Shown here piece by piece: positions 419-20,730 of a stretch of DNA of 64,000 nt. Made by a program: the position numbers and the translations under genes. This DNA comes from Devosia sp. FJ2-5-3 (lineage in GTDB: Bacteria; Pseudomonadota; Alphaproteobacteria; Rhizobiales; Devosiaceae). The stretch is taken from NCBI RefSeq assembly GCF_029201545.1, contig NZ_CP104007.1, positions 3,072,501 to 3,136,500 on the forward strand. Reading direction: 5' to 3'. Numbering within the stretch: position 1 is the stretch's first letter; every line of letters starts with the position of its first letter. The notes under the pieces are model-generated. The model had not been told where the DNA came from. It saw nothing but the letters and a program-made list of their open reading frames with translations, and did no database searches.

Positions 419-492
419 TGGGGAATAGTTCAATGGTAGAACAGCGGACTCTGACTCCGTCGATCTTGGTTCGAATCCAGGTTCCCCAGCCA
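419..492 (+). tRNA. tRNA-Gln (anticodon CUG), integration target
   Basis: The cloverleaf folds by eye. A 7-bp acceptor stem pairs TGGGGAA with TTCCCCA, the D-arm pairs GTTC with GAAC, the anticodon loop is CTCTGAC giving anticodon CUG (Gln), and the T-arm loop is TTCGAAT. The discriminator base is G, and CCA is encoded at 490-492. The 3' end carries the left copy of the 21-bp att repeat, so the tRNA stays intact beside the integrated element. Confidence 0.95.
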
Positions 493-493: not shown

Positions 494-555
494 AAATTCC
501 CGAAACCCCGCATTTCCTAGCGTTCTTGCGATAGCGCGTCTGGTGGATTCCCATT

Positions 556-577
556 TGGTCCACCGGGCTGGTCCACC
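556..577 (+). repeat. Paired TGGTCCACC repeats near the left end
   Basis: TGGTCCACC occurs at 556-564 and again at 569-577, 13 bp start to start, between attL and the integrase start. The same pair with the same 13-bp spacing lies just inside the right end. Such end-flanking repeats suit arm-type binding sites of a tyrosine integrase or its directionality factor. Confidence 0.6.
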
Positions 578-599
578 AGTTTCAGGACGGGAAACACTA

Positions 600-2405
600 A
601 TGGCGGGGAATCTGCGGCTGCGCGGCGCGCGCTACCATTTTCGTAAGAAGCTTCCGGTCAAACTGCGGCAACGTCTGGGACAGTATGAAGTCGTCCGGTC
701 GCTTGAAACTTCAGACTATAGGTTGGCTCGCCAGCGATCACGGTTTCTCTGGCTGGCAACTCAAAAGGTGTTCGACTGGGTGGACAAGAATCCGACACTG
801 ACGAAGGCTCAGGTTGATGCTGCAGTCGCTCGCTTCATCCAAAAGGTGGAATGGGCAGATGAAATCCGGTTGGCTGCCGATGGTGCCCTTTATGACCACC
901 ACGGCGATGCGCCGCACGATGCAGACGCGTTGATCCGCGAAACCGATGCAGAGGAGCTACGGGCTGCCCTGGCTCATAACGATACCTCCTATGTTCAGAA
1001 GTACATCAACACGTTGAAGCTTGACCTTGGTCCCTCTTTGACGCAGGTGGACGAAAAGCTTCTTGGTCGGGCGCTGCTTGCTGCATTGGCTAAGAGCAGC
1101 GACACGCAGGCAACGCGGCTGCGGACCGAATTCTATCCTTATACAAGCGGCGAAATGGGCGACCTGCAGCCCATCGAAGAACCAGAAGCAACTGAGGAGC
1201 CGCCAGCTCCAGCAGCCGCGCCGGCGCCTGCACATATACAAGGCTTCGCCAGCATGACGTTCAGCGAGGCGTGGTCCGAAGCTATGGCCGATAATCTCGC
1301 CACGTCGAGCAGCGACGACGCCGATGTGAAGTGGGATGAAGGCAAAGTGGCACACGCCGGCAGCACGCTCAACTTATGGACGGCCATCCACGGCCATGCG
1401 GCGCTGTCCAAGACAACGCCTGAGCTTGCAATCACGTTTCGCAGAACTGCTGCGCGCCTTCCGGCGCTCTATCATCGCGAGAAGAAGTGGCGCGACTGGC
1501 CCGTTGCCGACATCATCGCCGATGCGGACTTAGAGGACGCGCGTGGTGAAAAAGACAATCCTGGAAACTACCAAAAAATAAGGCGGGTTAGCCCGAAAAC
1601 AGTGAACAGGCACATTTCGGTGCTCAAGACGACCTGGGAGAAGTTCGTCCAGCTTCGCCTAGCGCCCGCCGAATTGGCAAACCCATTCAATTCACTGCAC
1701 ACACCCGTCCGGAAGACCACGCACATCATCATTGAGGAGCGCGACCAGTTCACCCTTGAGGAAATCTGCATCTTGTTCGCGGCCCCTGTCTGGACCGGTT
1801 GCCGGTCGAAAGGGCGCCGACAAATTCCGGGACCCATGATTATCCGTGACTGGAAATACTGGGTGCCACTCCTGGGTGCCTACACAGGGATGCGTCGCGA
1901 GGAAATCTGCGCCCTGACGGTAGCAGATTTCGAGCAGGTGCGCGGCATCTGGATCATCAATCTGCGGAAGGCGAAGAAGCGGCTCAAGACGCCGGGATCG
2001 CCTCGCTACGTCCCCATCCACGATCACCTCATTGCATGGGGCATTCTCGGCGATCTTGTCCATGGACGAGACGCAAAGGAATGGTTATTCCCAGATTTGA
2101 AGCCCAGTGCTGTTGCGCGACGACGAGGCGAGCCTTTTGGAAAATGGTTTACGCCGCTGCGGCGCAAGCTCGGCATCTATCGGCCCGAAGTTGTTTTCCA
2201 TTCGTTCCGGCACACAGTGGCTACCGCTCTACGGAATGCGGAAGTTTACATGCCGTTCGTAGAGGAAATAACCGGTCATGAAGACGAGGCACGGCAGCTT
2301 GAAATCAAGCGTTATACTAAAGAAGCGCTGGTCGAGAACTTAAAGGCTGCAATTGACAAGCTTGACTATGGCCTCACGCTTCCAAATCGATCCGATACCC
2401 GTTAG
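600..2405 (+). CDS. int: Tyrosine recombinase/integrase of the element
   Basis: This 601-residue site-specific recombinase should cut and join at the tRNA-Gln att site. Catalytic positions are visible in order: Arg in YTGMRREE (about residue 431), Lys in the basic strand RKAKKR (about 458), His-x-x-Arg in HSFRHT (about 533), His in TGHED (about 559) and the nucleophile Tyr in KRYTKE (about 571). The N-terminus (LRLRGARYHFRKKLP) is the short beta-rich domain common in large Gram-negative integrases, followed by a long helical SAM-like core-binding region. I chose ATG 600 over an in-frame ATG at 543, because the earlier one lies across the repeat region and a purine-rich GGACGGGAAA precedes 600. 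The gene lies directly beside the tRNA, as in most tRNA-targeting islands. Confidence 0.93.
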   Translation: MAGNLRLRGARYHFRKKLPVKLRQRLGQYEVVRSLETSDYRLARQRSRFLWLATQKVFDWVDKNPTLTKAQVDAAVARFIQKVEWADEIRLAADGALYDHHGDAPHDADALIRETDAEELRAALAHNDTSYVQKYINTLKLDLGPSLTQVDEKLLGRALLAALAKSSDTQATRLRTEFYPYTSGEMGDLQPIEEPEATEEPPAPAAAPAPAHIQGFASMTFSEAWSEAMADNLATSSSDDADVKWDEGKVAHAGSTLNLWTAIHGHAALSKTTPELAITFRRTAARLPALYHREKKWRDWPVADIIADADLEDARGEKDNPGNYQKIRRVSPKTVNRHISVLKTTWEKFVQLRLAPAELANPFNSLHTPVRKTTHIIIEERDQFTLEEICILFAAPVWTGCRSKGRRQIPGPMIIRDWKYWVPLLGAYTGMRREEICALTVADFEQVRGIWIINLRKAKKRLKTPGSPRYVPIHDHLIAWGILGDLVHGRDAKEWLFPDLKPSAVARRRGEPFGKWFTPLRRKLGIYRPEVVFHSFRHTVATALRNAEVYMPFVEEITGHEDEARQLEIKRYTKEALVENLKAAIDKLDYGLTLPNRSDTR

Positions 2406-2479: not shown

Positions 2480-2935
2480 ATGAAGGTTTCGTTGCATAGT
2501 CATTGTGCGGGTTCGGAACGAGTGCCGTCCCACATATTGGATGATGTCCTTGCAGCCGCCGATGCCATTGACGTTCGCTTGGAGCGAGGCGCGGCGCCAC
2601 GCATTCGTGATCATTTCGTTGCGGCCCTTCGGTCAAAAGGCTGGTCAAGCGAAGTAACTGTTTCTCGCGATTCTGACATGAGCATCACCTCAATGCGTGA
2701 GGACATTGGCCTATGCCTGCAGACTGGCAATATGGCCCGAATGTACGCCGACTTGATGAAGCTTCAGACGCTGTATCTCAATGACGCCATCAAAGGCGCG
2801 GTGTTTGTGTTGCCATCCCAACCCGTCGCGTTGGCAATCGGCGACAATATAGCCCAGGCTACGCGGCTTGAGCGCGAGCTCGAGATTTTTCGCAAGGCCT
2901 TCTATGTTCCGACGCTGATCGTCGCACTGGAGTGA
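2480..2935 (+). CDS. Probable BglII/BstYI-like restriction endonuclease fold protein
   Basis: A 151-residue protein and the first gene of the four-gene island operon. The C-terminal half (GNMARMYADLMKLQTLYL, then GAVFVLPS, then LERELEIFRKAFYVPTLIV) matches my recollection of BglII-type PD-(D/E)XK endonucleases and their solitary relatives. The metal-binding E-x-Q strand appears here as C-L-Q (in GLCLQTGN), so either the acidic residue has moved or the active site is altered. I cannot tell whether CLQ is normal for the subfamily. It ends two bases before the next gene's ATG. A DNA-cleaving or DNA-recognising subunit is the best guess. The fold assignment rests on motif memory and is moderately secure; catalytic activity is open. 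Confidence 0.6.
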   Translation: MKVSLHSHCAGSERVPSHILDDVLAAADAIDVRLERGAAPRIRDHFVAALRSKGWSSEVTVSRDSDMSITSMREDIGLCLQTGNMARMYADLMKLQTLYLNDAIKGAVFVLPSQPVALAIGDNIAQATRLERELEIFRKAFYVPTLIVALE

Positions 2936-2937
2936 AT

Positions 2938-4245
2938 ATGCCGGACATCGATCTACCCGACACCCCGAAAGGCTCTCGGTTCGGCTGGCCTCGCCCTGCC
3001 AGACTGGAAGAGTTCAAGACACGACTACAGGCAAAAGACCTGCCCACAGACCGTGTGGTTTTTCAGGGTCTCAACCAAGACCTGCCGATCATCCGCGTTC
3101 CGATCGATCTCCCCAAATACCGTTTGGTCAACGGACGGACAGCCTCTCTCCAGGTCGAGCATCTCGCCCTCAATACGGACCTTCGTCCAGACCTCTTCAG
3201 CGGCGATCCAGAGATGTGGGACGCTCAGGAGGTCCAGCACGAGCTTCTGCTCAAGCTGGGTCGCCTGTCCGAGCTGGACGGCTATTTCGAAGACGCGGCC
3301 CACAAGCAGGTCAACCCGCTGTTGCTCGATGAGGAAGGCTTCGTCGTCAACGGCAACCGGCGCCTGTCAATGTGGCGCCAGCTCCTGCACGACGACCCCC
3401 AAAAGTACGGCCATTTCGAGCACATCGAAGTGGTAGTGCTACCCCATGCAACCGAAAAGGACATCAACCGACTGGAGGCGCAGCTCCAGATCGAGAAGGA
3501 CATCCGGGCAGACTACAGCTGGGATGCTCAGGCCAACATGATGATCGCCAAGATGAAGCGCGATGACCTCAAAGCTGAGGAGTTGTGCAAGCTCTATAAG
3601 ATGAAGGACAGCGATTTCGCCCAGCTGCTTGATATGCATGCCTACGCTGACGAATATCTCCGGTCACGCGACAAGGCAAACAGGTGGTCAGAGGTGTCCG
3701 GCCAGGAGCACACCTTTCAGCGTCTCGTCCAGAGCCGGTCCAAGCTCTCGGGTGTGGGACGAAAGGAAATCTTCAAGGAAGCTGCCTTCGCCCTGATCGA
3801 CGATCCCGCCGCTGTCGGGCGTCTCTACATTGCCCTCCCAGAACTGGCGGCCAACCTGGACAAGGTCGTTGAACGGCTCGCCAGTGAACTAGAACTGGAT
3901 ACAACCACTCCAGATGACGGCTTGGACGATCTGTTCGGGGGCGGTCAGGACGTGGAAAGCGACGCCCAACAAGCTGGGCTGATGCAGGCGCTGAAGGACC
4001 CCGCCCAACGCGCGCAGGCCCGCGAAGCGATCGGGGAGGTTCTGGAGACCGAGCGGCAGGTCAAAAAGGATGTGAAGAAGGCCGGCTATCTGCTGGACCA
4101 GTGTGCAAAGGCGAACAGCTTCCTCACGGCCGCGGCAAAGGACGGCCTGAGACCAGAGTCCAAGCTGACGGGCGTAACCAAGCAGCTCGATGAGATCGAG
4201 ACACGTGTCGCCGCCATTCGCGCCTACCTGGCCGAACATGCTTAG
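2938..4245 (+). CDS. ParB/Srx-like domain protein
   Basis: A 435-residue protein. Around residues 120-145 it has the ParB-like signature NPLLLDEEGFVVNGNRRLSM, where the GNRR stretch corresponds to the CTP/ATP-binding GxxR motif of ParB/sulfiredoxin-fold proteins. After it come the helical LEAQLQIEKDIRADYSWDAQA region and a charged C-terminal part with coiled-coil character. The start is ATG 2938, five bases after GGAG; an in-frame GTG at 2932 overlaps the preceding stop. No ParA gene is present, so partitioning is unlikely. Next to a nuclease and an SNF2-type helicase it more likely helps recognise or load on DNA for the module. The family call is moderate and the role is inferred. Confidence 0.65.
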   Translation: MPDIDLPDTPKGSRFGWPRPARLEEFKTRLQAKDLPTDRVVFQGLNQDLPIIRVPIDLPKYRLVNGRTASLQVEHLALNTDLRPDLFSGDPEMWDAQEVQHELLLKLGRLSELDGYFEDAAHKQVNPLLLDEEGFVVNGNRRLSMWRQLLHDDPQKYGHFEHIEVVVLPHATEKDINRLEAQLQIEKDIRADYSWDAQANMMIAKMKRDDLKAEELCKLYKMKDSDFAQLLDMHAYADEYLRSRDKANRWSEVSGQEHTFQRLVQSRSKLSGVGRKEIFKEAAFALIDDPAAVGRLYIALPELAANLDKVVERLASELELDTTTPDDGLDDLFGGGQDVESDAQQAGLMQALKDPAQRAQAREAIGEVLETERQVKKDVKKAGYLLDQCAKANSFLTAAAKDGLRPESKLTGVTKQLDEIETRVAAIRAYLAEHA

Positions 4246-6067
4246 CCTGGCCTACCGGGCCAAGGACGGCAGGGCCGCTTTCACCTGGGACGCCGGGGAT
4301 GGCGCTAGCAATTGGTCGGCCATGCTCACCCGGGTCGCCTATGACGCCAGCCCGGACACCACGCTGGAAGGCGTGGCAGGGTTTTCCCTGCCGTGGTGGG
4401 CGTTCGTCGGCGCTCGCGACCAGTTCCTGCAGGTGTTCCGCGCCAACGGATTGAAGTTCGGCTCAGGCCTTTCCATCACTCCCGAAGCCAAGGACCTTCT
4501 GCGGTCGTCGCAGCGGGCCGCAGAGAGCTATTGGGCAGCGTCAGGTGCGTCGCCCCTGTCTCTTGATGAGCTGAGGTCCTCGCTTGACGCTTCAGGCTTC
4601 GCCCGGAGCCTGTCCGAACACCAGGCTCCCAATGTGGCCCGCCTCGCCGCTCTCCCGGCAGCGGCAACCTTCTCGGTTCCGGGCGCCGGCAAGACAACCG
4701 AAGCGCTCGCCTTCTTCACGCTTCGCGCTCAGCCTGGCGATCGCCTTCTGGTGATCGCCCCAAAGAACGCCTTTGCAGCTTGGGACGAACAAATCCTGGA
4801 GTGTCTGCCAAAAGCTTCGTCCACCTTTTTGCGCCTACGCGGCGGTTACGACCGCATTCGTGCTGCCCTGGCGGCGGACCCACCACTGATGCTGATGACC
4901 TATCAGCAGCTGCCAAGGGTCCAAGACTTGATCACGCAGCACCTTGCCCAACACCGGACCTTCGTTTTTCTGGACGAAAGCCACCGGATCAAGTCAGGCG
5001 TGAACGGAGCCAGCGGACGTTCAGTCATCGAACTGTCGCACCTCCCGATCGGTAAACTGATCATGAGCGGAACGCCAATGCCCCAGTCGGTCAGCGATCT
5101 CGTTCCGCAGTTCCAGTTCCTTTATCCGGAAGTTCGCGTCGAGGAGCAGACGGTTGTCGATCTGGTGCGGCCAATTTATGTCCGCACCAACAAGAAGCAA
5201 CTCGGTCTTCCTGCGGTCACCCGACATCTGGTGTCCTTGCCGATGGCTCCGGTCCAGCGGGAGCTGTACGAACTTATGCGCCTGGAAGTCGCTCGGGAGG
5301 CCTCCGCCGTGCTAGACGCCCGTGGTCGGCAGACCTTCCGCGCTTTGGGGCGCTCCGTCTCCCGCCTTCTTCAGTTCGTTTCCAACCCCTCGCTCCTCGC
5401 CGCCCAGATCGGCTTTGCTCACCACGACCTTCTTGCATCCGTGCTTGCCGAGGGCGAAGGTCCCAAGCTGGAATACGTCCTCAAGCGGGCCCGCCAGCTT
5501 TCGCACCAGGGCCACAAGGTGCTGATCTGGTCGTCCTTTGTCCGCAACGTCGAATATATAGCCTCACGGCTGTCTGATTTGGGCGCAGTCTACATTCACG
5601 GCGGGGTGGACGCCGGCGAAGAGGATGACGCCGACACCCGAGAGGGCAAGATCAAGGCCTTCCATGATGACCACAACGTCCGGGTGATGGTGGCCAATCC
5701 TGCCGCTGCCAGCGAGGGCATCAGCCTGCACCGCGTCTGTCATCATGCGATCTATCTAGACCGCACCTTCAACGCCGCTCATTACCTTCAGTCGGAGGAT
5801 CGGATACACCGCTTCGGCCTGCCGGAGGATCAGGAGACGGTCATCGAGATTGTCGAATGCGTCGATACCGTCGATGAAACAGTTCGCAACCGGCTCGGCT
5901 TCAAGATCGGCGAAATGGCTAAGGCGTTGGAAGACTCATCCTTAGCGCCGGACCCCATCCCGATCGACCCGGTCCAGGTCGGAACCGCAGATGTCGAGGA
6001 CTATGTTACCGGGCTTCAGTTGGAGGACATACAAGCGATCGCCGCTGAACTGGGGCAGCCGAAGTGA
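4238..6067 (+). CDS. SNF2-type DEAD/DEAH-box helicase/translocase
   Basis: A superfamily-2 ATPase of about 609 residues with both RecA-like lobes. Lobe 1 has a Walker A-like VPGAGKTTEA (about residue 149), motif II as DESH in VFLDESHRIKSG (about 245) and motif III as MSGTPMPQS (about 276). Lobe 2 has VLIWSSFVRNVEYIA, EGISLHRVCHHAIYLDRTFNAAHYLQ and the arginine-finger motif DRIHRFG (about 521). About 130 residues at the N-terminus have no recognised domain. ATG 4238 is chosen because it overlaps the upstream gene by 8 bases, typical of translational coupling; an upstream ATG at 4190 would overlap much more. It is probably the motor of the putative restriction module, moving on double-stranded DNA. 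Confidence 0.85.
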   Translation: MLSLAYRAKDGRAAFTWDAGDGASNWSAMLTRVAYDASPDTTLEGVAGFSLPWWAFVGARDQFLQVFRANGLKFGSGLSITPEAKDLLRSSQRAAESYWAASGASPLSLDELRSSLDASGFARSLSEHQAPNVARLAALPAAATFSVPGAGKTTEALAFFTLRAQPGDRLLVIAPKNAFAAWDEQILECLPKASSTFLRLRGGYDRIRAALAADPPLMLMTYQQLPRVQDLITQHLAQHRTFVFLDESHRIKSGVNGASGRSVIELSHLPIGKLIMSGTPMPQSVSDLVPQFQFLYPEVRVEEQTVVDLVRPIYVRTNKKQLGLPAVTRHLVSLPMAPVQRELYELMRLEVAREASAVLDARGRQTFRALGRSVSRLLQFVSNPSLLAAQIGFAHHDLLASVLAEGEGPKLEYVLKRARQLSHQGHKVLIWSSFVRNVEYIASRLSDLGAVYIHGGVDAGEEDDADTREGKIKAFHDDHNVRVMVANPAAASEGISLHRVCHHAIYLDRTFNAAHYLQSEDRIHRFGLPEDQETVIEIVECVDTVDETVRNRLGFKIGEMAKALEDSSLAPDPIPIDPVQVGTADVEDYVTGLQLEDIQAIAAELGQPK

Positions 6068-6924
6068 TGCTCCTTCTGTCCCCCGGCCTCGCTCAAGCAG
6101 GCATCGCCCTGCTCGACCTTCTGCAAAGACGCCCTTTGTCTGTGCCGGAACTGCTTTCCGGACTTCCCAAAGTCGGCGGGATGTCGTCGACCGCCGCTTT
6201 CTCGTTGGCGGAAGCTATGGCTTGGCTGGACATAAATGAAGCCGGTCAGCTGCAGGTCTCAGCTGCTGGTCTCAAGGTCCACTCCGCCGACTGCTATGAA
6301 GCGGCACTGCGCTGCATCCTGTTTCACTATGTCGAGACCCAGAGACCCGACTGGCTCCAGAATGCCGTCTATGGCCGCTCCCGAGTTCTGAACTTCTGCC
6401 CTGTGGGAATCCGTCAGGTCTTCGTTGAAGCCGGCCTGGCCGGCGCACCCGACGACGAAGTTGTAAACTTCTGGGATTGGCTCGCCGGCATCGCCCGAGG
6501 TTTACAGAATGATCATCTTCTCGCCATCGGGCGCGAAGGCGAGCGACTAACGCTAGCCCACGAAGAAGCTCGCACGGGAACCCCGGCCCGCTGGATCGCG
6601 ATCGAGAGCAACCAGGACGGTTATGACGTACTTTCGATCAGGGCTGCGGACGACCGCGCCTTTCTCTCTATCGAGGTTAAGGCCAGCCAAGGTGGGATGG
6701 GTGGAGCGCTGCATCTCACCAGGCACGAATGGGAGATCGCGCTCGATCGCCCCCTCCACGTGTTTCATCTTTGGGACTTGTCGTGCGCGCTGCCTAGGCT
6801 AGCAACCGTTACAATGGATGAAATGGCGGTCCATATCCCGACCGATGCGGGTGCTGGCGGTTGGGAAGGTGTCGAGGTTCCCTTCAAGGCATTCGAGAGC
6901 CTCTTTGGCCCGGCCTTGCCCTGA
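6067..6924 (+). CDS. DUF3883-like PD-(D/E)XK domain protein
   Basis: A 285-residue protein and the last gene of the operon. Its ATG overlaps the helicase stop (TGATG). The N-terminal part (to about residue 80) looks like a winged-helix-type region. The C-terminal part has an ESNQDGYDVLS strand (about 180-190) followed by LSIEVKAS (about 200-207), then the LTRHEWEIALD helix. That is the D...ExK arrangement of DUF3883/Protein-NO-VEIN-type domains, which are probable nuclease folds often attached to helicase or restriction genes. The gene stops immediately before the stop codon of the convergent methyltransferase gene. It is likely a second nuclease or DNA-binding subunit. Catalytic residues appear intact; activity is inferred. 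Confidence 0.65.
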   Translation: MLLLSPGLAQAGIALLDLLQRRPLSVPELLSGLPKVGGMSSTAAFSLAEAMAWLDINEAGQLQVSAAGLKVHSADCYEAALRCILFHYVETQRPDWLQNAVYGRSRVLNFCPVGIRQVFVEAGLAGAPDDEVVNFWDWLAGIARGLQNDHLLAIGREGERLTLAHEEARTGTPARWIAIESNQDGYDVLSIRAADDRAFLSIEVKASQGGMGGALHLTRHEWEIALDRPLHVFHLWDLSCALPRLATVTMDEMAVHIPTDAGAGGWEGVEVPFKAFESLFGPALP

Positions 6925-8550
6925 TCAGGCCGCTGACTTCTGGAGACGATGCCAGGGCAGGGTATTAAACCAAGCCCCCACAAGCAGCCCACTCAGAATA
7001 GGCAACGCATGGGTGGTCAGCTTCTTGGATCCCGGAATACTGTCGCCTTCCTCGCCTGCTGCCGCAGCCTCCATCACATAGCCAATGACCGCGTGCTGCT
7101 CATCGGTTGCGGCGGAGAGCAACTGCTGGTGAACCTTGCCAGCCAACTCGCCCAAGAGGTCCGCGATCTGATAGGGGCGAAGACCGCCAGCGCGGTGTGA
7201 CCATGCGGCCTGGAGATCGTTCGGAGTGCTCGCCTGCAGCACCTGGGTAGCATTGGCGAACTCGACACCCAGAGCCATCATCAGGGACCGCAGCAACGGT
7301 GACTTACGGAGCTTGCAAAGCAGGTCGCCATCGAGGGTGATCTCGCGGATATCGATGGAAGGGCCGAAGAAGAAGCGGACCTGCCAATCCTGCTCCCGCC
7401 CCCGTCCGTTAGCGAGCTCAAACCTCATGCCGCTCTTGAAACGCAACCCCGGCAAGGCGGCCCGGAAACTGCGACCCGCCGGGTATATACGGCCTTCCGT
7501 CGTCGGCGGCGTCACCGGCGCCGCAGCCTCAGGCAGACGTAATCTCAAACCGGCTTGCGCGTAGGGAACGAGATCGTCAGCCGATACGTCCTGGGCTGCT
7601 TGAGCGACCAGATAGGTGAAGGTCGGCGGAATGGCGTTGCCGACCATCTTCGCCTTCTCAGGGAAAGAGCGTGCATAAAATTGGTAGGTAATTGGGAAGC
7701 CTTGGAGGCAGGCGCGCTCCCGAATATTCAACCGCCGGAAACCGCCGGAACTATCGCCGATCACGATGCTCTCGCGCGAAACGCGCGTGCACGTGGCCGT
7801 GACGGTCCGGGCCGGCACATCCATTACATCCGGGAAGGCCATATTGTTGTAAACCGGATGATAGGTCTTGGCCTCGCGATTCATGCGGAGTTCCTCCGCA
7901 TTTAGAGCGCGTTCCACCTCCCGTTCCGTCACCATTTCCGCAGGCAGCGCGCAGCCCCAGACGGGATCGATGACATTGTCGTCCGCAGCGATCGCCTCGA
8001 CAACATCGCCCAGGGTCCGCCGCGGCAGACGCGGCTGGTAGGTCTTGATCAGATCGAAGGGAATATTGCCTGCAATGCATCGCCGACGCGACTGAGGCGT
8101 CCCGTAATCGGAAAAGTCGATGATCTCGATCTGCATGCCGAGCTCGCGGAAGCGATATAACGGATGCTTAGCATCAGCCATGCCCCGCTCAAGCACCTGC
8201 GCTACTCGCGGCACATTCTCGAGCGCCCAGAATTTGGGTTTCAAATGCTCCACGACCTCAAGAAACCGCACAAGGTCCTTGAGCCCCTCGTCGAGATCGC
8301 CTCCGCCTCCCCGGTTCGAATAGGAGAACTCCGTGCAAGGTGGGCTGCCGACGACAAGGTCGATATTCGACGGGAGGTTTTCTAGTTGCAACTGCCGGAC
8401 ATCGGTGGGCTTCAGGGAACCCCCGTGATTGCCGTTGTGGGTATCGACCGCAGGCTGCCACCACTCATAGGAGGCGACCACCTCGACGCCGGCCAGACGC
8501 AGCCCTAAGCTCCATCCGCCAACGCCAGCATAGAGATCAATTGCACGCAC
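6925..8550 (-). CDS. DNA (cytosine-5) methyltransferase with C-terminal extension
   Basis: The N-terminal 325 residues contain the ordered motifs of m5C methyltransferases: DLYAGVGG (motif I), the catalytic GSPPCTEFS (PCQ-type loop, about residue 70), ENV (about 112), QSRRR (about 155), LQGFP in motif IX, and GNAIPP (motif X). The last 200 or so residues (SFRAALPGLRFKSGMRFEL onward) are a separate region I do not recognise. No ATG fits the N-terminus. GTG 8550 has a GGGTGA upstream, and TTG 8553 is the alternative. Its stop codon abuts that of the opposite-strand operon with no gap. It probably protects host DNA from the neighbouring nuclease module, as in restriction-modification. Confidence 0.9.
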   Translation of the reverse strand: MRAIDLYAGVGGWSLGLRLAGVEVVASYEWWQPAVDTHNGNHGGSLKPTDVRQLQLENLPSNIDLVVGSPPCTEFSYSNRGGGGDLDEGLKDLVRFLEVVEHLKPKFWALENVPRVAQVLERGMADAKHPLYRFRELGMQIEIIDFSDYGTPQSRRRCIAGNIPFDLIKTYQPRLPRRTLGDVVEAIAADDNVIDPVWGCALPAEMVTEREVERALNAEELRMNREAKTYHPVYNNMAFPDVMDVPARTVTATCTRVSRESIVIGDSSGGFRRLNIRERACLQGFPITYQFYARSFPEKAKMVGNAIPPTFTYLVAQAAQDVSADDLVPYAQAGLRLRLPEAAAPVTPPTTEGRIYPAGRSFRAALPGLRFKSGMRFELANGRGREQDWQVRFFFGPSIDIREITLDGDLLCKLRKSPLLRSLMMALGVEFANATQVLQASTPNDLQAAWSHRAGGLRPYQIADLLGELAGKVHQQLLSAATDEQHAVIGYVMEAAAAGEEGDSIPGSKKLTTHALPILSGLLVGAWFNTLPWHRLQKSAA

Positions 8551-8827
8551 CAATAATCACCCAAGCGCGATTCGCGCACATGTTCCAAGGCCCAACAGTT
8601 TAGCTAACCAGCGGCGAAGTGCAAGATCCAAGCTTAGATTCCTGCAATGTAGCCGACTATGAGCTGCCGCTTGTCGCTGTCCTAGGTCTTCAAAGGTCCG
8701 TTCATTGGGTGCTACCGCATGCTGCGTTGTTGAGCTTCGACGCAGGAGCATGCACCAACAGGGCCTCACCAAAGCTTTCGGTTCCACGGATGTCGCCTTC
8801 TTCAACGCCCCGTCGCAGAGTTGATGG

Positions 8828-9409
8828 TCACCTGGACTGTTCCGAAGAGCTTAACAAGCGGTAAACGCTGGCCCGGCTGATGCCGAGTTCCTTTGCGATC
8901 GTAACCGGTTTGGCGCCGCCGGCGGCCATTTCCTTGACCTTCTTAGCATGACGTTGTGCGGTCTTCTGCCGCCCAGTATAGCGGCCCTCTCGCTTGGCCT
9001 TGTCTATGCCTTCGCGCTGCCGCTCCAACATGATCTCCCGCTCGAATTGCGCGATGGACCCGAGTAAGTTCAAGAGCAGTTGGCCCATGGGTGTGCTGGT
9101 GTCGATATCGGGGTTGAGGATGCGAAGCGTAACGCCCTTGTGCTTGAGGTCCTCAGCAATGGCCACCAGGCCGGAGACGGAGCGGGCGAGCCGGTCGATC
9201 TTGGTGACAACGAAGGTGTCGCCCTGGCGGACATAGGCCATGGCGATGTCGAGTTGGGCGCGCTCGGCAACGCTGCTGACCTGCTCGCTGTATATGCGAT
9301 CGGCACCAATGGCGGTGAGGTCTGCGAGCTGGGCCTCAAGTCCAGCAACTTGGTCAACGGTGGACGTGCGTGCATAGCCGATAATCTGGCCGGCTGGGGT
9401 CTTGGTCAT
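8828..9409 (-). CDS. Serine recombinase (resolvase/invertase family)
   Basis: A 193-residue small serine recombinase. The catalytic Ser is in GYARTSTVDQ near the N-terminus. The conserved arginine-rich block FVVTKIDRLARSVSGL, the STPMGQLLLNLLGSIAQFERE helix and a C-terminal helix-turn-helix (KPVTIAKELGISRASVYRLL) follow in the usual order. ATG 9409 has AAGGGA 9 bases upstream; the longer in-frame extension overlaps the rep gene in another frame and is not likely coding. Lying just after rep in the same direction, it probably resolves multimers of the excised, replicating form. A role in DNA inversion is possible but I see no inverted crossover sites. Confidence 0.9.
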   Translation of the reverse strand: MTKTPAGQIIGYARTSTVDQVAGLEAQLADLTAIGADRIYSEQVSSVAERAQLDIAMAYVRQGDTFVVTKIDRLARSVSGLVAIAEDLKHKGVTLRILNPDIDTSTPMGQLLLNLLGSIAQFEREIMLERQREGIDKAKREGRYTGRQKTAQRHAKKVKEMAAGGAKPVTIAKELGISRASVYRLLSSSEQSR

Positions 9410-9435
9410 AGTTTGGTCCCTTGTTTCAATAGGAT

Positions 9436-11232
9436 CTAGGCATGCTGAGAATTTCGGCCGAACTGTCCCACATGGTCGTTGTAGGACCCTTGGGAGACAG
9501 TTTCCGCCGAGTGCGGGCTGTCGCTCTTGAGCAGGGTCTTGTGGGATGCGGCATCGCGGCGACGGCGAAAGGCCTTGTCGGCCCATGTGTCGAGCACGTC
9601 GGCCATCGCTTCGGCTTCGGCATTGCCATGGGCGTTCAAGGCTGCATGGGCTTCGGCATAGCTGAGCGTAGCGGCAACCAGGTCGCGGCCATACCGGGCC
9701 GACCAGCGGTCCACTTGGTTGGCGAGAACGCTCTTACCTATCGCCTGTGCCTCCGGATCGGACAGAAGGGCCATGGCCTTGATCGCCAACATAATCTGGT
9801 CGGCAATGACAAGATCGACGGGCGGGGCGAACCCAGTCTGATGCAGGGCCCACCAGCGGGAGCGCTGCCATCCATCGCGACCGAAGGTCTCGACATGGGA
9901 GAGGAAGGTACCCGTAAGATTGAGGTCGAGCAGCTTCATCCAGACCGGAGAGGGGATGGAACCGACGAGGGTAGTCTCATCGAAACTTGGGCCAGGATCC
10001 GTGCCGGCCTCTATACCCAGCTTCTTCGCCATCTTGGCGGTGATTACGCCTGACTTCGTACCACGCAGGGCCTCGAAGAATTCAACGAACCGGCCCTCCA
10101 TCTCGGCGTCGCCGGCAGCTGCGAGTTCGGCAATGTCAAAAGGTGACAGGCTGGTGTCTTCGTTTACGGCGTCAGCCAGCTTGCCCTCAACGTCGGCGCG
10201 ACGGTGATGATGAGCGGGGTAAGCATTGGGCCTGGCATCGAGGATGGTGGCCGATTGCTGTGCCGTGCTGGCGTGGTATCCTGACTGCGCCAGGCGCTCC
10301 ACGAAGCGGTCGATCAGCATGGCCGATCCCGCCCGCAAGGCTTCCAAGTCGGCGGTGAGGCATGGCAGTGTCACATGCAGATGCGGGTGCCAGCCACCGC
10401 GACCGCTCCAGCGCACATGTGCATCAGTCATCGCACCAACCGCCTGCATCAGCGGCTTGATCTTCTCGTTCCAATATCGGTCGGAGCGCGCCCCAGTAGA
10501 TGCCGACTTTAGGGCGGCCAGCAAGGGGGCGAGCCTGTCGTCGCGGTCGTGCTCGATGGTAAAGACGAATGTGATCATCGTCCCGCCCATGGCGGTGGCG
10601 GCCTCATGAGCGAGTCGATACCGTTTCGCACGAAGAGCTGCGATCCGACGGGCGCACATGGGACACGCCTCGCCATTGCCGCAGCGGTAGATGCCAGCCG
10701 CAGATGCCCGCTGGGTACCGTTCCCCCGCTCCACGAGGTGCACGTTGACGTTCTTGCTGCGTGCATGGCCGCAAACACATACCGCCGGTCCCTTCCCCGT
10801 TGGAGGGGCGAGCATGTCCTGAATGGGCCGAACCAGGTGCCGGTAGTCATGTTGCGGCTTTTGAGTTTCCGTCTTGGGGATATGGACGGCCTCCCTGAGG
10901 AACTTAATGACTACGTCCCCCACGGCCTCCTCATGAGCGGGCTGCTCGTTATCGCTGGAACCCATTGTCTCGCTCGGTGCAGGGGTTTCGATGGTTGCCG
11001 CGGGCGGGGCATCAGGGGGCTCGCTGGCCGCTTCCGCTGCCTTAGAGGCCGCGATTACCTCCTCAAGGTCGATCTGCACCATGCGCGGCGCACGAGGCCG
11101 ACGGGTCTTCTTGGCCTTCGGCGCCAAGCCGCTGAGTTCCGCGCCTTGGGGCGGAGGGTTACGTTTTGCTGGCAATAGGCCGAGGGCAAGGTTATACTCG
11201 TCTATGAGGTCTTCCAGGTCGGTCTGATACAC
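9436..11232 (-). CDS. rep: HUH-type rolling-circle replication initiator (Rep)
   Basis: A 598-residue protein with a zinc-finger-like CGNGEACPMCARRI around residues 190-205, then LAHEAATAMGGTMITFVFTI and GWHPHLHVTLP near residue 283. H-P-H-L-H is the HUH metal-binding motif of Rep_1-type rolling-circle initiators. The first 120 residues are proline-rich, charged and probably disordered. The GTG start at 11232 is supported by GGAG 7 bases upstream. It should nick the element's double-strand origin after excision and allow replication as a circle. The nicking Tyr was not pinned down; several candidates follow the HUH motif. Family identity is good, replication mode is inferred. Confidence 0.78.
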   Translation of the reverse strand: MYQTDLEDLIDEYNLALGLLPAKRNPPPQGAELSGLAPKAKKTRRPRAPRMVQIDLEEVIAASKAAEAASEPPDAPPAATIETPAPSETMGSSDNEQPAHEEAVGDVVIKFLREAVHIPKTETQKPQHDYRHLVRPIQDMLAPPTGKGPAVCVCGHARSKNVNVHLVERGNGTQRASAAGIYRCGNGEACPMCARRIAALRAKRYRLAHEAATAMGGTMITFVFTIEHDRDDRLAPLLAALKSASTGARSDRYWNEKIKPLMQAVGAMTDAHVRWSGRGGWHPHLHVTLPCLTADLEALRAGSAMLIDRFVERLAQSGYHASTAQQSATILDARPNAYPAHHHRRADVEGKLADAVNEDTSLSPFDIAELAAAGDAEMEGRFVEFFEALRGTKSGVITAKMAKKLGIEAGTDPGPSFDETTLVGSIPSPVWMKLLDLNLTGTFLSHVETFGRDGWQRSRWWALHQTGFAPPVDLVIADQIMLAIKAMALLSDPEAQAIGKSVLANQVDRWSARYGRDLVAATLSYAEAHAALNAHGNAEAEAMADVLDTWADKAFRRRRDAASHKTLLKSDSPHSAETVSQGSYNDHVGQFGRNSQHA

Positions 11233-11613
11233 GGGCCGTCTCCATGCAACGAGAATTCGCTGCGTTGGAAAGATGGTCTGGCAAGAGCCGGAAAGTGTAC
11301 AGATACAAGGGGTTAGGCCCTGCCAGGCGTCCGGAAGCAGGGTTGGGCGTAAAGCTTGAAACCGTATCTGTGCCGCGTCAGGTTGCCCCTGTGGGCCCCT
11401 CCGCTATGGTTGTCCGTGTTCCTACAGTTACTCCCCGCCGAGGGGCTTACAGATCATTCCAGGCGTCTCACAGGGCCGTGTCGCTACGGCAACACTCAAA
11501 AGAGATTCCGTACAATCGGCATGATGGAGTGCATATCCGGCGTTGCGCCGGCGAGGAAATGCACTTCAAGGCAAATGGACGAGCTGCCGCTGACCCATTC
11601 GAGGGTGCCCGTA
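11233..11613. other. Intergenic region upstream of rep; possible origin
   Basis: No coding sequence is convincing here. Two structures are visible: ACAGATAC at 11299-11306 with its inverted copy GTATCTGT at 11364-11371, and a short hairpin CCGGCG/CGCCGG near 11537-11551. The region lies between the relaxase stop and the rep start, so it could hold the rep promoter and the double-strand origin, but no nick site was identified. Confidence 0.35.
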
Positions 11614-13377
11614 TTACCCGAAGTCCAACGGCAGTCCCCAAATGTTCCGCGCCTGCGGGTTCCTTGGACCATAGCTCCGCCGGTTCCGCTCCACCTTGCT
11701 GCCGGCCCATGCGATGAAGGGAGCGCCGCAGTATGCGATGGCCGGGAATACCTGTACCAACCGCCGCGCCATGACGACTTCTGCCAATGCCTCCATGGCA
11801 TTGCGGCGCTCGGCCTCCATCTGGCCCATCTGGCTCATGCGGTCGGCAGCCTCGGCCTTCTCCACCCGCGCCAGGTTGCTGCTGGCGCCTGATGCAGCGC
11901 GTTCGGCAGCAATGAGGTCAGCACGAAGGGCGGCAATTTCACACTCGATGGATTCCGTACCCGTGCTCTCGGCCTGCCGTCCGAGGAGCCGGTCCAGAAC
12001 CGTGCGGGGCGGCGGGGCCATTGCCGCTTCCCGCTCCTGCGCTTCGCGATAGGCCGAGAGCACTTCGGCATGCTTGGCGTCGGTAGCGTCCTTATAGAGT
12101 CGTGCCGCGTGTAGCCGGTGGGATACCCTGATCGTGGCCCTGGCCTCGGCGGCTGCAATTCGCGCCCGCGCCTGCTGCTCCTGCACCGCCAGAAGCTGCT
12201 GGACGCGCTGAGCGGACGATTGGTCGGAGCAGGACTTCGACAACACCATCACCCCGGCAGCGAAACTGTCGATGGCAGCGGTCAGTCGCTGTCGATCATT
12301 CGCCGCAAGATGTTGGCTATTCCCGGTTGGTCCAGCTTCTGGTGAAGCGCCTCGAGGCTCTGATCCACCTGCTCCATGCGCGTAACGATGGTTTGTAGCA
12401 GGCCCAGCATCGCGTCCAGCACGGACATACTCTCCCCCTTCATCGGCAGCGCGGTGACCCGCGCTAATTGCAGGATCGTCGCCACGTCCTGCCGAAGGGC
12501 CTGCGTGTCTGCGTGGATCAACTGCGCTGCGTTGTTCGAGCTGCTCGTAGTAGTCATGATCGTTCTCCATGAGGGTGTTGAATTCGGCCTTGCGCTGGCG
12601 AGCGAGGCGGTGGGCGGCACCAAGAAACTGACCGTCCGGCCCCAACACCACCCATGTTCCGGCCTTTTCACCCTGAGCGAGGGCGAGGCCATGGGCGGTG
12701 AGCCGCCGGTGGAGTTCAGCGCCCGTGGGGCTATCGGCCCAGGCCACACGCATATTGTTACGGACAATGGCGAGGTCGATCCCGGCCCGCTTTGCCGTCT
12801 GATGCTGGACGCTGGTAAAGGCAGCAGCCGGGCGCTCGCCTCGACCCAGATGAGCGGTAAGCTGGTCAGCTATATCGGCCTTACCTTCCGCTCGCAGGGC
12901 AGCAAGGACCGATAGATCGTGCGCCCCCGCGATGATGGGATGGTTGAACAGGAGTTCGACTTGGCGGGCGATTTTTTCATGCCGCGCATGATCAAACTTT
13001 GAGGACAATACCCGGCCTGTTGCAGGATTCGTTTCAGGAACCACCACGTGCCAGTGCTGGCCAGCCACCTCCGACACGGCGCGGGCCTTGGTATGCTGCA
13101 CTATTAGGGTTGAGGCTGGATCGAACCCGAACTCAGCCCCAAGCATATCGACTACCTCGTGGAACTGCCGGCGGTCCATGTTCACCTGCGGCGCGACGAT
13201 GAAATGCCTCACCGCATAGCTGCGACCGAACTGGCGAGCATCGGCCACGGCATCCTTAAGGTCGGCGAGTGTGCCCTGCACGATCTCGACTGCCTCGTTG
13301 TCGTCTGCACTGGTCAGGTGCCGAGCCAACGCCCCAGCGCCTGTCGAGGTCCTGACGCGCGTGGCTTTGATCAACAT
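11614..13377 (-). CDS. Relaxase/mobilization nuclease
   Basis: A protein of about 587 residues starting MLIKATRVRTSTGAG. The N-terminal 220 residues carry relaxase-type features: RHFIVAPQVNMDRRQFHEVV and the metal-binding GQHWHVVVPETNP (about residue 109). A mid-part (GTWVVLGPDGQFLGAAHRLARQRK) is followed by a low-complexity linker rich in Gly, Ala and Arg (about 270-345). The rest is a long alanine-rich helical region with coiled-coil character. The linker coincides with a gene in another frame (12282-12557), which explains its odd composition. The start is one base after the mobC stop, so the two are coupled. It should nick at oriT and lead strand transfer using a helper element's conjugation machinery. 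Confidence 0.8.
   Translation of the reverse strand: MLIKATRVRTSTGAGALARHLTSADDNEAVEIVQGTLADLKDAVADARQFGRSYAVRHFIVAPQVNMDRRQFHEVVDMLGAEFGFDPASTLIVQHTKARAVSEVAGQHWHVVVPETNPATGRVLSSKFDHARHEKIARQVELLFNHPIIAGAHDLSVLAALRAEGKADIADQLTAHLGRGERPAAAFTSVQHQTAKRAGIDLAIVRNNMRVAWADSPTGAELHRRLTAHGLALAQGEKAGTWVVLGPDGQFLGAAHRLARQRKAEFNTLMENDHDYYEQLEQRSAVDPRRHAGPSAGRGDDPAISAGHRAADEGGEYVRAGRDAGPATNHRYAHGAGGSEPRGASPEAGPTGNSQHLAANDRQRLTAAIDSFAAGVMVLSKSCSDQSSAQRVQQLLAVQEQQARARIAAAEARATIRVSHRLHAARLYKDATDAKHAEVLSAYREAQEREAAMAPPPRTVLDRLLGRQAESTGTESIECEIAALRADLIAAERAASGASSNLARVEKAEAADRMSQMGQMEAERRNAMEALAEVVMARRLVQVFPAIAYCGAPFIAWAGSKVERNRRSYGPRNPQARNIWGLPLDFG
12282..12557 (-). CDS. Small helical protein nested inside the relaxase gene (MobB-like position)
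   Basis: A 91-residue reading frame that lies wholly inside the relaxase gene in another frame of the same strand. It begins MTTTSSSNNAAQLIHADTQ and ends with LRRMIDSD. It has a good ribosome binding site (GGAG seven bases before ATG) and reads as a regular amphipathic helical/coiled-coil protein (LDAMLGLLQTIVTRMEQVDQSLEALHQKL). The relaxase frame over the same bases is low-complexity. RSF1010-type plasmids carry mobB nested in mobA in the same way, so an accessory mobilization role is plausible. There is no sequence match to MobB that I can claim. Confidence 0.6.
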   Translation of the reverse strand: MTTTSSSNNAAQLIHADTQALRQDVATILQLARVTALPMKGESMSVLDAMLGLLQTIVTRMEQVDQSLEALHQKLDQPGIANILRRMIDSD

Positions 13378-13378
13378 G

Positions 13379-13651
13379 TCAGCGGCCCAGCATTGTCTGG
13401 GCGTCGGCACGGGCCTGTGCCAAGTCGTCGGAGCGGCCATAGCGCGCCTCGATCGCGTTGATGCGGCGGCGGAGCGCGGCCAAGGTGGTGCGATCCTCAA
13501 CGTTAAGAGGCTCCTGCATCCCCAGATGACCACGGAGGCTACGCCGGATCAGTTCGGAAACGGTGATGCCCTTCTCCTCGGCAGCATGCTCAGCAGCTCT
13601 CTTATCGCGGGAGGGAAGGCGGATTTCGAGGCGTTTGTCGCAAGAGGGCAT
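13379..13651 (-). CDS. mobC: MobC-like relaxosome accessory protein
   Basis: A 90-residue basic protein with a ribbon-helix-helix N-terminus: RLEIRLPSRDKRAAEHAAEEKG forms the strand and first helix, ITVSELIRRSLRGHL the second, followed by a helical tail. This is the layout of plasmid MobC/NikA-type proteins that bind oriT and help the relaxase melt DNA. I chose ATG 13651 because AAAGG lies 8 bases upstream; ATG 13657 and GTG 13660 are too close to that site. The relaxase ATG follows its stop after one base. The upstream gap contains two perfect hairpins, as expected near oriT. Confidence 0.75.
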   Translation of the reverse strand: MPSCDKRLEIRLPSRDKRAAEHAAEEKGITVSELIRRSLRGHLGMQEPLNVEDRTTLAALRRRINAIEARYGRSDDLAQARADAQTMLGR

Positions 13652-13961
13652 GTTCATCACCTTTCTGGGGGTGCACGGGGGGTCCCCCTGCCTAGCTGAT
13701 GCCGGTCCGGCATCATGGCTGGCTCCCTATGAACCAGCGTTCCAATAGGTTCAGGTGCGAACTTCCATATTGCAACTGCCGTGTACGGACCAAAATGACA
13801 TGTGCGCTAGCATACCATTCGGCAGGCCAGCCTGCCGGAGAGACGAAGGCGGGGAGCCCTCACATAGCGGACAGCCTACGGCTCGCTTTTGGATGTAGTT
13901 GCTCGTCCGTCCGACCGAACGGCTGCTCCAAGCCGGTACTGGGCCCCAAACGTCTAGAGGG
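13652..13961. other. Gap upstream of mobC with two hairpins; candidate oriT
   Basis: No coding frame is convincing. Two perfect inverted repeats are seen: TGATGCCG-GTC-CGGCATCA at 13697-13715 (8-bp arms, 3-base loop) and CGGCAGGC-CA-GCCTGCCG at 13820-13837 (8-bp arms, 2-base loop). Position immediately upstream of mobC and relaxase is typical for oriT. No conserved nic sequence was recognised. Confidence 0.45.
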
Positions 13962-14690
13962 TCAGGGAGCGCTCTCGAACTCCATGAGCGCGAGACTGAT
14001 GTTGTCGGGCGCCCCGAGCTCGAAGCAACGAGCGATTAGTCGTTCGAGCGTCGGGGCGGGATCGTCTCTGCCGAGAATGCGTTCAATTTCGACATCGCCG
14101 ACCACATCGGTAAGACCATCGGTGCACAGCAGAATGCGATCGCCCTCCTGCACCTCGAATTCCCCCTGCGAAGGCAATATCTCGGTGAAGAACCGGCCCC
14201 CGCCAAGCGACTGCGTGATCGAATGGTCGCGTCGACCCCCTGCCAGTACCGCTGGGACATGGTCTTTAGAAATTTGGGTCAGGTTGCGATCTCTTGAAAG
14301 GTACGCTCTCGAGTCACCTACGTTGAACCATCGGCATCGCCGTTGCTCGATGGCGACACCCACGATCGTGGTTCCCATACCCAAGAACTCGCCGTTGGCC
14401 ATGGCAGCTTCGTAGATTGCCCGATTGGCTGCCCGCAAAGCCACTGCGACACCATCCTCGGTCAGGAGCTGCCGATGCAGTGCCTCCAGTTTGGTCAGCG
14501 CCATATGGCTTGCGACTTCACCCTTGGCATGCCCGCCCATGCCGTCCGCGATCAACACGTATTGATTTGGCGCTTTGCTCTCCAACCCGATCGCAGGGCC
14601 TTCCACGGTCCTCCGACCGCAGATCGAAATTCGATCCTCGTTCGTATCGCGGACCGAACCGGTCGACGTCGCTGAAGCTATTCGCCACAT
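13962..14690 (-). CDS. PP2C-family serine/threonine protein phosphatase
   Basis: A 243-residue Stp1/PrpC-like metal-dependent phosphatase. Metal-binding and core motifs are in order: SVRDTNEDR (residues 12-20), LIADGMGGH (47-54), FNVGDSRAYL (about 125), LLCTDGLTD and GAPDNISL near the end. It starts 8 bases after the stop of the PLD-fold gene, with GAGGTGA overlapping that stop as the ribosome site. It should reverse phosphorylation by the kinase domain encoded two genes upstream, perhaps keeping the helicase system off in uninfected cells. The enzyme class is secure; the regulatory pairing is inferred from the operon. Confidence 0.9.
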   Translation of the reverse strand: MWRIASATSTGSVRDTNEDRISICGRRTVEGPAIGLESKAPNQYVLIADGMGGHAKGEVASHMALTKLEALHRQLLTEDGVAVALRAANRAIYEAAMANGEFLGMGTTIVGVAIEQRRCRWFNVGDSRAYLSRDRNLTQISKDHVPAVLAGGRRDHSITQSLGGGRFFTEILPSQGEFEVQEGDRILLCTDGLTDVVGDVEIERILGRDDPAPTLERLIARCFELGAPDNISLALMEFESAP

Positions 14691-14697
14691 GACGCGC

Positions 14698-16137
14698 TCA
14701 CCTCGCAACTCTCGTGAGATAGGCGGCGACGCTCTCGGGCTCATTCATGACGAAGCCCGCGAACTGTTCGAACGATCTAATGCGACCGTGATTGCTCAGC
14801 ATCGGCCGGTTCGCCACGAGCGCGACCCGGTTGTCCCAGGAAAGATGGTAGTACCTTCTCTCCTTGGTGTCCCTGACCTGGAGCGCTGCGGGAAACCTGG
14901 TGCTGAGCTTGGCCAGCCCGTCGAACGCCTGAGCCCAATCCTTACCACGTGAACGCCATTGGTTCGCTTCTTCGTTCAGCAGGATGTTCACCTGCACCCC
15001 GCGCTTCAGCAGTTGCTCGAGCGCACCGATGAAATCGCGATCGACTATATGGGGAGCGAGCCCTCTGGTGCTGATGGAGATCGAGCTTCTCGCCTCCGAC
15101 AGAGCGCGGCGCAGGAATTCGGACACTTCGTAGACCGCAGCGGGGCGCGCCGGCGATTGCGTCAGCGACCGTCGCGCTTCCGTTTCCGCCGCCAATGCGG
15201 CCTCGATCTCGCTCGGAGCCGGTCGTTGATCCTCGGAGTTCTCGCCGCGGTCGACGGCGTCGATCCGGCGCTGGACGGCTGCCACCTTCAACGCGGCGAG
15301 CGACACGGCCCTCTGCCTTACGAGATAGTCCTCCTGATCGAGCACCATTCGCGCCACGTCCTGGCCAAGGTGCGCGCGAACGTTAGATTTGATGTACCCA
15401 TCCGAAAAGGCCTTGACCAATCCCTTGCGGATGTTGCCGCTATGCTCGGCGAAGCGCTGCTCGAGGTTCTCGTCCGGGACGCCGTTCACTATGAAGCGCG
15501 TTCTGATCTCGCCTTTCCTGGATCTGAATACCAACGCAACGACCCTGCGAAAAACGCGCCTGTAGCGAGCAATGCGTTTGACACGCAAGAGATCGCGGCT
15601 TGCATCCTGACGCCCCGGCTGGTCCGAGAGGACTTGGTCGATCTCCGGCAGGCTCAGGTCATTGATAGTCGGTTGCGTTGGTGGAGTAGCCGGAATCTCT
15701 GCCAGCGCGCCGTCCTCCACCTCCTTGGTAAAAGCAAGGTCCAGACCGAGGGACCCGACCGGTTTGCGCGTGATACCGTCGAAGAGGATGGTGAGCACCT
15801 CCTCGGCGGGCGTCGAAACGCCTTCCGCCAGCGCCTTGCGGCCTAGGTCCGTAATCGCGACCTCGTCGCCATAGGCGATGAACTTGTCGGAAGCGAGGTC
15901 GGCCAGGGCACCGCGCACTATAGAGTCCTCAAGTCCGAGAAAACCCACGAGATCGTCAGCTGAAAGGCCCTCGACCAAGCTCCGGAGCACGAATTCACGG
16001 ATCGGCTGTAGCCCTTTGCGAACGACGCTCACGGCTTCGACATTAAGCTGCCACAGCGGCACCGCCGCTTCCGCATAGTCGAGCAGCTCGAAGCCGGACA
16101 GCTCCTCGTAGCGACGGGCAATCTGATCAGGCGTCAT
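14698..16137 (-). CDS. PLD-fold protein with degenerate HKD motif (MkoB-like)
   Basis: A 479-residue protein. The N-terminal 115 residues look like winged-helix segments (LSADDLVGFLGLEDSIVRGALADL, then FIAYGDEVAITDLGRKAL). The middle is charged and helical. From about residue 340 it has a phospholipase-D-like half: RALSEARSSISISTRG, IGALEQLLKRGVQVNILLNEE, then RRYYHLSWDNRVALV (about 430) and SFEQFAGFVMNEPESV. In a normal HxKxxxxD motif the last Asp matches this WDN; here the His and Lys positions read Arg and Tyr. Its start overlaps the kinase-helicase stop by 11 bases. Helicase plus PLD is the pairing of type I Mokosh. It may be an inactive or unusual PLD nuclease. Confidence 0.65.
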   Translation of the reverse strand: MTPDQIARRYEELSGFELLDYAEAAVPLWQLNVEAVSVVRKGLQPIREFVLRSLVEGLSADDLVGFLGLEDSIVRGALADLASDKFIAYGDEVAITDLGRKALAEGVSTPAEEVLTILFDGITRKPVGSLGLDLAFTKEVEDGALAEIPATPPTQPTINDLSLPEIDQVLSDQPGRQDASRDLLRVKRIARYRRVFRRVVALVFRSRKGEIRTRFIVNGVPDENLEQRFAEHSGNIRKGLVKAFSDGYIKSNVRAHLGQDVARMVLDQEDYLVRQRAVSLAALKVAAVQRRIDAVDRGENSEDQRPAPSEIEAALAAETEARRSLTQSPARPAAVYEVSEFLRRALSEARSSISISTRGLAPHIVDRDFIGALEQLLKRGVQVNILLNEEANQWRSRGKDWAQAFDGLAKLSTRFPAALQVRDTKERRYYHLSWDNRVALVANRPMLSNHGRIRSFEQFAGFVMNEPESVAAYLTRVAR

Positions 16138-20652: not shown

Positions 20653-20664
20653 AATGTATTACAA
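20653..20664 (+). promoter_or_regulatory. Putative operator AATGTATTACAA upstream of M14 peptidase
   Basis: The 12-mer AATGTATTACAA lies 66 bp before the peptidase start. Its exact reverse complement occurs upstream of the solute-binding protein gene at 24198-24209. The inner TGTATTACA is near-palindromic, as in GntR-type operators. The regulator is not in this window. Confidence 0.45.
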
Positions 20665-20730
20665 ACTTTCCATCCAAGGCGGGGGGAGGTCCTCGCTGGC
20701 TCGTTTCGTTTCAGCTGATTGGAAGTCCTC

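Follow-up and report, generated by a model that had tools for sequence, protein, structure and literature searches.

The question raised by the 64-kb window analysed here, a stretch of the 4.19 Mb single-contig genome of Devosia sp. FJ2-5-3, is what kind of system is encoded by five adjoining genes close to its left end (Table 1). Four plus-strand genes (2480-6924), encoding a BglII-like protein, a ParB-like protein, an SNF2-family ATPase and a NOV_C (DUF3883) protein, run up to the end of a convergent C5-cytosine methyltransferase gene (6925-8553, minus strand). A first-pass annotation had singled out these five open reading frames (ORFs) as a candidate restriction-like system; all are present as it described, and the spacings of +2, -8, -1 and 0 bases between successive genes agree. 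Starts were chosen to fit orthologues, alternative first starts being GTG 2932 (ParB-like), ATG 4190 (SNF2) and GTG 6064 (NOV_C), and promoter and terminator scans gave results near chance. The reading favoured here, with a probability of roughly 0.55, is that of an ATP-dependent restriction-modification (R-M) system in which a former restriction enzyme would serve as site reader and to which a clamp, a motor and a nuclease would have been added.

All five genes were recovered by tblastn, in the same order and orientation and at 52-90% identity, in six records (L001-L006) from Nitratireductor, a Rhizobiales isolate, Caulobacter, Brevundimonas and, twice, Mesorhizobium; a contig from a viral collection (L016) also holds the five genes in this order. 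The module is more than a chance assembly because its full set recurs in one order in these seven loci besides the window, and the gene order, whose absence outside the carrying element had been named beforehand as grounds for refutation, is thus kept in other genomes. Three ORFs of the element in the window, namely the integrase, the relaxase and one of 598 amino acids (aa), had no tblastn match at L001-L006, and the resolvase was matched at two of them. According to Pfam, the genes flanking the module differ in L001-L004 (an IS66 transposase, a KwaB-like gene, HEPN/nucleotidyltransferase genes and a gamma-glutamyltranspeptidase, respectively), and L005 and L006 have similar surroundings. Comparison of the window with L001-L003 gave ratios of nonsynonymous to synonymous substitution rates (dN/dS) of 0.05-0.17 for 14 gene pairs, the fifteenth having a saturated dS and those with L003 a high one (1.8-2.3); the module genes are under purifying selection.

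A wider survey covered 26 loci with a ParB-like gene (the window, L001-L007, L016-L019, L022, L025-L033, L064 and L072-L074), plasmid matches H2-H5 (31-33% identity, 36% of the query), the weak genome match L071 and the left flank L034 falling outside it. SNF2 adjoins the ParB-like gene in 20 of the 26; two loci are cut at this point (L007, L018) and four have no SNF2 there (L022, of which 3.4 kb was seen, L028, L073 and L074). A NOV_C gene comes next in 19 of these 20 (in L030 recognized via Pfam), and in L029 SNF2 is followed by an unmatched 251-aa ORF running off the contig. Directly upstream of the ParB-like gene, 17 of the 26 loci have a BglII-like gene, followed by ParB-SNF2-NOV_C in all 15 whose sequence continues, and each of the 17 cores comes with a methyltransferase gene. 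The ParB-like relatives of L028, L073 and L074 are orphans with neither SNF2 nor NOV_C alongside. In L033 (4700-10115), from a genome of the window's genus, the ParB-like, SNF2 and NOV_C genes lie in pieces and the frame of the methyltransferase, of the type with an SPPY motif, is unbroken.

What, then, does the BglII-like protein do? It matches the family profile PF09195 and shares with BglII/BstYI/BamHI type II enzymes (PF09195, PF02923) the BglII/BamHI fold, which in the predicted structure spans 149 of its 151 residues. The intact PD..(D/E)xQ/E/K site of a classical BglII-type endonuclease was not found: both catalytic acids are missing in the 17 module loci, with T or F at position 70 and C or Q at position 79, whereas the D and the E are both kept in all nine intact ordinary relatives. 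Cys stands at the catalytic Glu position in 120/120 listed homologues, in which several invariant polar residues also lie near one another in sequence, and Gln81 aligns with the Gln that, according to a passage of PMC4081073, BglII uses in place of Lys. In one reading of the ordinary enzymes, the pattern allowed the position under test to be D, E, C or Q; the two that failed it, L043 and L052, both have an internal stop and may have another residue there. Five fragment matches to PF09195 (L058-L062) were outside the survey. Because both acids are lost in all module loci, the protein is, judging from its sequence, more likely a non-cutting recognition subunit than a nuclease. The first-pass annotation had counted two possible nucleases, of which the NOV_C protein alone retains an intact site, and its interpretation stands in part: module type, mobile element, gene order, ParB fold and motor were upheld, the second nuclease was not.

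The NOV_C protein is likely the nuclease of the module, as the four residues of its PD-(D/E)XK site (E159-D187-E203-x-K205) are identical in all 120 listed homologues and the D and ExK are also kept in the divergent relatives L027, L030, L031 and L032. The motor for double-stranded DNA (dsDNA) proposed earlier is supported by the Pfam matches to SNF2-rel_dom and Helicase_C and by superfamily 2 (SF2) motifs (Walker A, DESH/DEAH box, motif VI) that were intact in 17/17 SNF2 sequences checked, a set from which L033 was omitted as broken and outside which L064 and L072 lay. The window's ParB-like protein had no Pfam match and no significant match to a ParB profile, and comparing its family by sequence with solved structures brought no meaningful match; pentatricopeptide matches were rejected as repeat artefacts, and a ddrB-ParB profile matched 6 of 19 relatives weakly (best 0.0013). 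Its predicted fold, which bears out the earlier ParB-like call, matches ParB/KorB/Noc, with an N-terminal ParB/Srx domain and then a helix-turn-helix domain, the layout of those proteins, followed by long C-terminal helices. On the basis of this model we propose a nucleotide-dependent DNA clamp or loader.

The gene set and its order and conservation, the loss of catalytic acids from a retained fold, the ParB-type fold, and the NOV_C, SNF2 and methyltransferase motifs, all obtained from sequences and structural models, suggest a system whose proteins may form a complex and act in defence. The methyltransferase would mark the host copies of one target sequence, and the BglII-fold protein, deprived of cutting, would read the unmodified target. 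The ParB-like clamp would load at or near this site and link it to the SNF2 motor, which would travel along duplex DNA, and the NOV_C protein would cut the DNA last. A more specific version, which we put forward only tentatively, is that the dead BglII-fold protein turns an unmethylated site into a parS-like nucleation point, from which CTP-driven ParB clamps would spread and recruit SNF2 and NOV_C.

From the sequences, the methyltransferase slot of the module is exchangeable: eight loci have the convergent C5 gene (the window, L001-L006 and L016) and nine an unrelated N6_N4-type (SPPY) gene upstream (L007, L017, L018, L019, L027, L031, L033, L064 and L072; two cut, one broken). The C5 motifs PPCxxFS, ENV and QxRxR are intact in 8/8 convergent enzymes. 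M.HaeIII is the nearest solved relative of the window's enzyme, whose C-terminal extension of about 200 aa (6928-7533, minus strand) aligns throughout with orthologues and had neither a Pfam match nor a significant sequence match in PDB. The SPPY motif, usual for N4-cytosine methyltransferases, was present in 10/10 N6_N4-type enzymes checked (L064 and L072 outside the set); the best NCBIfam model for four of them was an adenine methyltransferase, well below cut-off. A second methyltransferase, as a fragment or a gene, was seen in two loci: an N6_N4 fragment in L002 and, near L031, a shorter C5 gene in which two of the three C5 motifs are missing. In L003 a Vsr mismatch endonuclease gene (10195-10653, minus strand) directly adjoins the C5 methyltransferase of the module. 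It is conceivable, though rather unlikely, that specificity comes from the methyltransferase, as in BREX or type ISP systems, the BglII-like protein being a scaffold or control protein. Such a role would suit L025 and L026, where SPPY methyltransferase-ParB-SNF2-NOV_C is kept with no BglII-like gene, and L030, where a large partner of 887 aa, weakly like Eco57I/PglX, occurs together with a methyltransferase bearing a weak HNH match; it sits poorly with the DNA-binding fold and the many residues kept in the BglII-like protein, and with the pairing of two methyltransferase families with one BglII-like family.

The origin of a dead reader can be approached through its ordinary relatives. In 10 of 22 ordinary enzyme loci the adjoining methyltransferase matches the profile of the module SPPY methyltransferases at 390-428 bits, an arrangement shared with the SPPY-type modules; in the other 12 no such methyltransferase was found in the approximately 3 kb seen. 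Of the ten enzymes, all but L043/L084, which has an internal stop, are intact, and 5-16 kb around these ten loci held no ParB-like, SNF2 or NOV_C profile match. In a tree of 19 enzymes, which includes 10 of the 17 module proteins and for which the program warned of long branches, a branch supported at 97/96, and hence present in 96% of bootstrap trees, sets the dead enzymes apart, with the intact L075-L077 type as their neighbours; module and ordinary sets separate in the methyltransferase tree too (93/91). The BglII-like proteins of the window and of L007 are sisters (99/98), yet L007 has an SPPY methyltransferase where the window has C5, suggesting that the reader stayed and its methyltransferase partner was exchanged; the L007 sequence breaks off within the ParB-like gene, so that a second methyltransferase there is possible. 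The module thus seems, from these comparisons, to derive from an ordinary two-gene type II cassette, with loss of cutting, though the opposite direction may apply. A cassette of SPPY methyltransferase and BglII/BstYI-type enzyme would have gained ParB-SNF2-NOV_C, the enzyme losing its ability to cut; the SPPY methyltransferase would have given way to a convergent C5 one in the lineage of the window. The same data make it improbable that this is an ordinary type II system whose BglII-like protein cuts with an unorthodox site, ParB, SNF2 and NOV_C being accessory or unrelated: the full fold, Gln81 and the invariant polar residues would be expected of such an enzyme, but both acids are gone from every module locus, and the three downstream genes, constant in the continuing loci, are absent around the nine intact enzymes and the tenth with a stop. 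We give similarly little credence to a modification-dependent (type IV-like) or non-cutting system that recognises modified phage DNA or, like BREX, blocks replication; a clamp and motor could act without cleavage, and the R-M phenotype is here deduced from the genes, but each of the 17 loci with a BglII-like gene has a methyltransferase gene and the nuclease site of NOV_C is invariant.

An ATP-dependent R-M system of the kind favoured here was not found under any name. The module is real and conserved, apparently nameless, and lacks features that define each of the named families tested; as claimed earlier, no one named system in PADLOC or NCBIfam accounts for its five proteins (PADLOC matches taken as the best 25 of 26 for SNF2 and the best 25 of 58 for the methyltransferase). 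DISARM, BREX, Dpd, Zorya and Hma were rejected because matches reach only common motor or methylase domains. With DISARM the module shares an SNF2-type ATPase and a C5 methyltransferase in one locus; however, its SNF2 protein reaches 36.5 bits where the DrmD cut-off is 610, matches to DrmA, DrmD and DrmMII were partial and confined to helicase domains and methylases, and neither DrmB (DUF1998) nor DrmC (PLD) was among the PADLOC matches listed for the five proteins, genes being scanned to about 25 kb. Within the same scope BREX was represented by a partial BrxHII helicase match, with no PglZ or BrxC, in line with the distinction from both systems drawn beforehand. BglII-type systems differ by their intact acids, by the lack of downstream ParB, SNF2 and NOV_C genes and, for the window's lineage, by the C5 methyltransferase. 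The nearest worked-out mechanism is that of CglI, described in part of PMC5737866 as one nuclease protein and one DEAD-family ATPase, with translocation driven by nucleoside triphosphates (NTP) preceding cleavage. By analogy, the logic of the module resembles that of type I or CglI systems, and CglI/NgoAVII likewise combine a methyltransferase, a nuclease and a separate helicase-like ATPase; the same part of PMC5737866 mentions no ParB-like protein or separate BglII-fold reader for CglI, and the three-gene CglI/NgoAVII definition does not fit five genes with an SNF2 domain and ParB-type and BglII-fold subunits. The MORC/SNF2 R-M operons (Iyer, Abhiman, Aravind 2008), in passages of PMC2292703, are centred on GHKL ATPases and feature a VP1/RAV domain and nucleases of HNH or EcoRII-like type; like the module, they place SWI2/SNF2 ATPases in an R-M setting where the nuclease is a separate protein. 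They were rejected, no GHKL ATPase being found among the scanned window genes. In the distant relative L032 (4780-11345), a possible separate subtype, the ParB-SNF2-NOV_C core lies beside a GHKL (MORC/MutL-like) ATPase, next to the ParB-like gene, and a Methyltransf_35 protein. The PADLOC candidate PDC-S36 has a NOV_C domain and a similar length (280 positions), but matches the module protein weakly (2.6e-5, 22 bits) and its model has no description. Open-licence literature, preprints being outside its scope, yielded no description of the module: no paper combined DUF3883, defense system, helicase and methyltransferase, and the two closest papers, on BREX-related and Dnd systems, contain neither BglII nor DUF3883, their relevant passages giving no account of this gene set.

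Homologue searches returned 712 ParB-like, 492 BglII-like and 515 NOV_C proteins, the best 120 being listed in each and only about 8,000 candidates being scored for ParB-like and NOV_C. Named records with at least one module protein include several alphaproteobacteria, Pseudomonas nitroreducens, Burkholderia pyrrocinia, an Ignavibacteriaceae, a Chthoniobacterales and a Candidatus Acidoferrum assembly. ParB-like profiles matched 7/385 genomes of the class, 5/398 of the phylum and 2/101 of relatives (profile A1) and 5/297 of the order (profile A5), counts that include the window's own genome each time and some orphan genes without the module. No match to the ParB-like protein was found in phages. 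BglII-like relatives on plasmids came from one record, of Paracoccus; L064 comes from Paracoccus denitrificans HAMBI 2443, where its plasmid was typed as conjugative, and has five proteins 92-99% identical to those of L031.

In the window, the module lies between the integrase and the resolvase, relaxase and NikA-like genes (8828-13660), likely mobilization genes of the integrase-bearing element, which supports the earlier claim that a restriction-like module rides on a mobile element. This position would suit a module that chiefly stabilises its own element by addiction and is not an anti-phage defence, which we consider very unlikely given the other neighbours met elsewhere, from the IS66 transposase and KwaB-like gene to the HEPN/nucleotidyltransferase and gamma-glutamyltranspeptidase genes. 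The 3' end of the tRNA is single-copy in the window and the genome, with no duplication to serve as attachment site and mark the right end of the element; the Mokosh genes probably share the element with the module. A PP2C phosphatase gene without a PADLOC match comes after MkoB, overlapping it, and a 541-aa ORF adjoining the Mokosh genes (20659-22284, minus strand) had no Pfam or PADLOC match.

Table 1. Features of the module and its surroundings (window positions)
Feature	Position	Strand	Evidence
tRNA-Gln	419-492		ARAGORN and Rfam
Tyrosine integrase of the carrying element, beside tRNA-Gln	543-2405	+	PF00589, 9.8e-17
BglII/BamHI-fold pseudo-endonuclease, 151 aa, proposed site-recognition subunit	2480-2935	+	PF09195 BglII, 1.4e-7
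ParB-like protein, 435 aa (437 from first GTG), proposed NTP-dependent clamp/loader	2938-4245	+	Predicted fold
SNF2-family SF2 ATPase, 609 aa, proposed dsDNA translocase	4238-6067	+	PF00176, 1.1e-16; PF00271 Helicase_C, 7e-9
NOV_C/DUF3883 protein, 285 aa, proposed nuclease	6067-6924	+	PF13020, 4.2e-7
C5-cytosine methyltransferase, 542 aa, proposed self-protection	6925-8553	-	PF00145, 6.5e-42
Resolvase, likely mobilization gene set of same element	8828-9586	-	Pfam
Relaxase, likely mobilization gene set of same element	11614-13533	-	Pfam
NikA-like protein, likely mobilization gene set of same element	13379-13660	-	Pfam, below family cut-off
Type I Mokosh defence genes	13962-19678	-	PADLOC: MkoA kinase-helicase, 1.3e-208; MkoB-like PLD protein, 5.3e-41

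If the ATP-dependent R-M reading is true, a simple two-gene restriction system would have become a multi-subunit ATP-dependent machine in which the original enzyme was kept to read DNA, and ParB-type clamps would enter the restriction field; should the parS-like nucleation also hold, a restriction system would have ParB-type clamping as its sensor-amplifier. Annotation tools, which now miss the module, would gain a defence system of wide though scattered occurrence, and the module would offer a natural test of uncoupling the specificity of a type II enzyme from its cutting.

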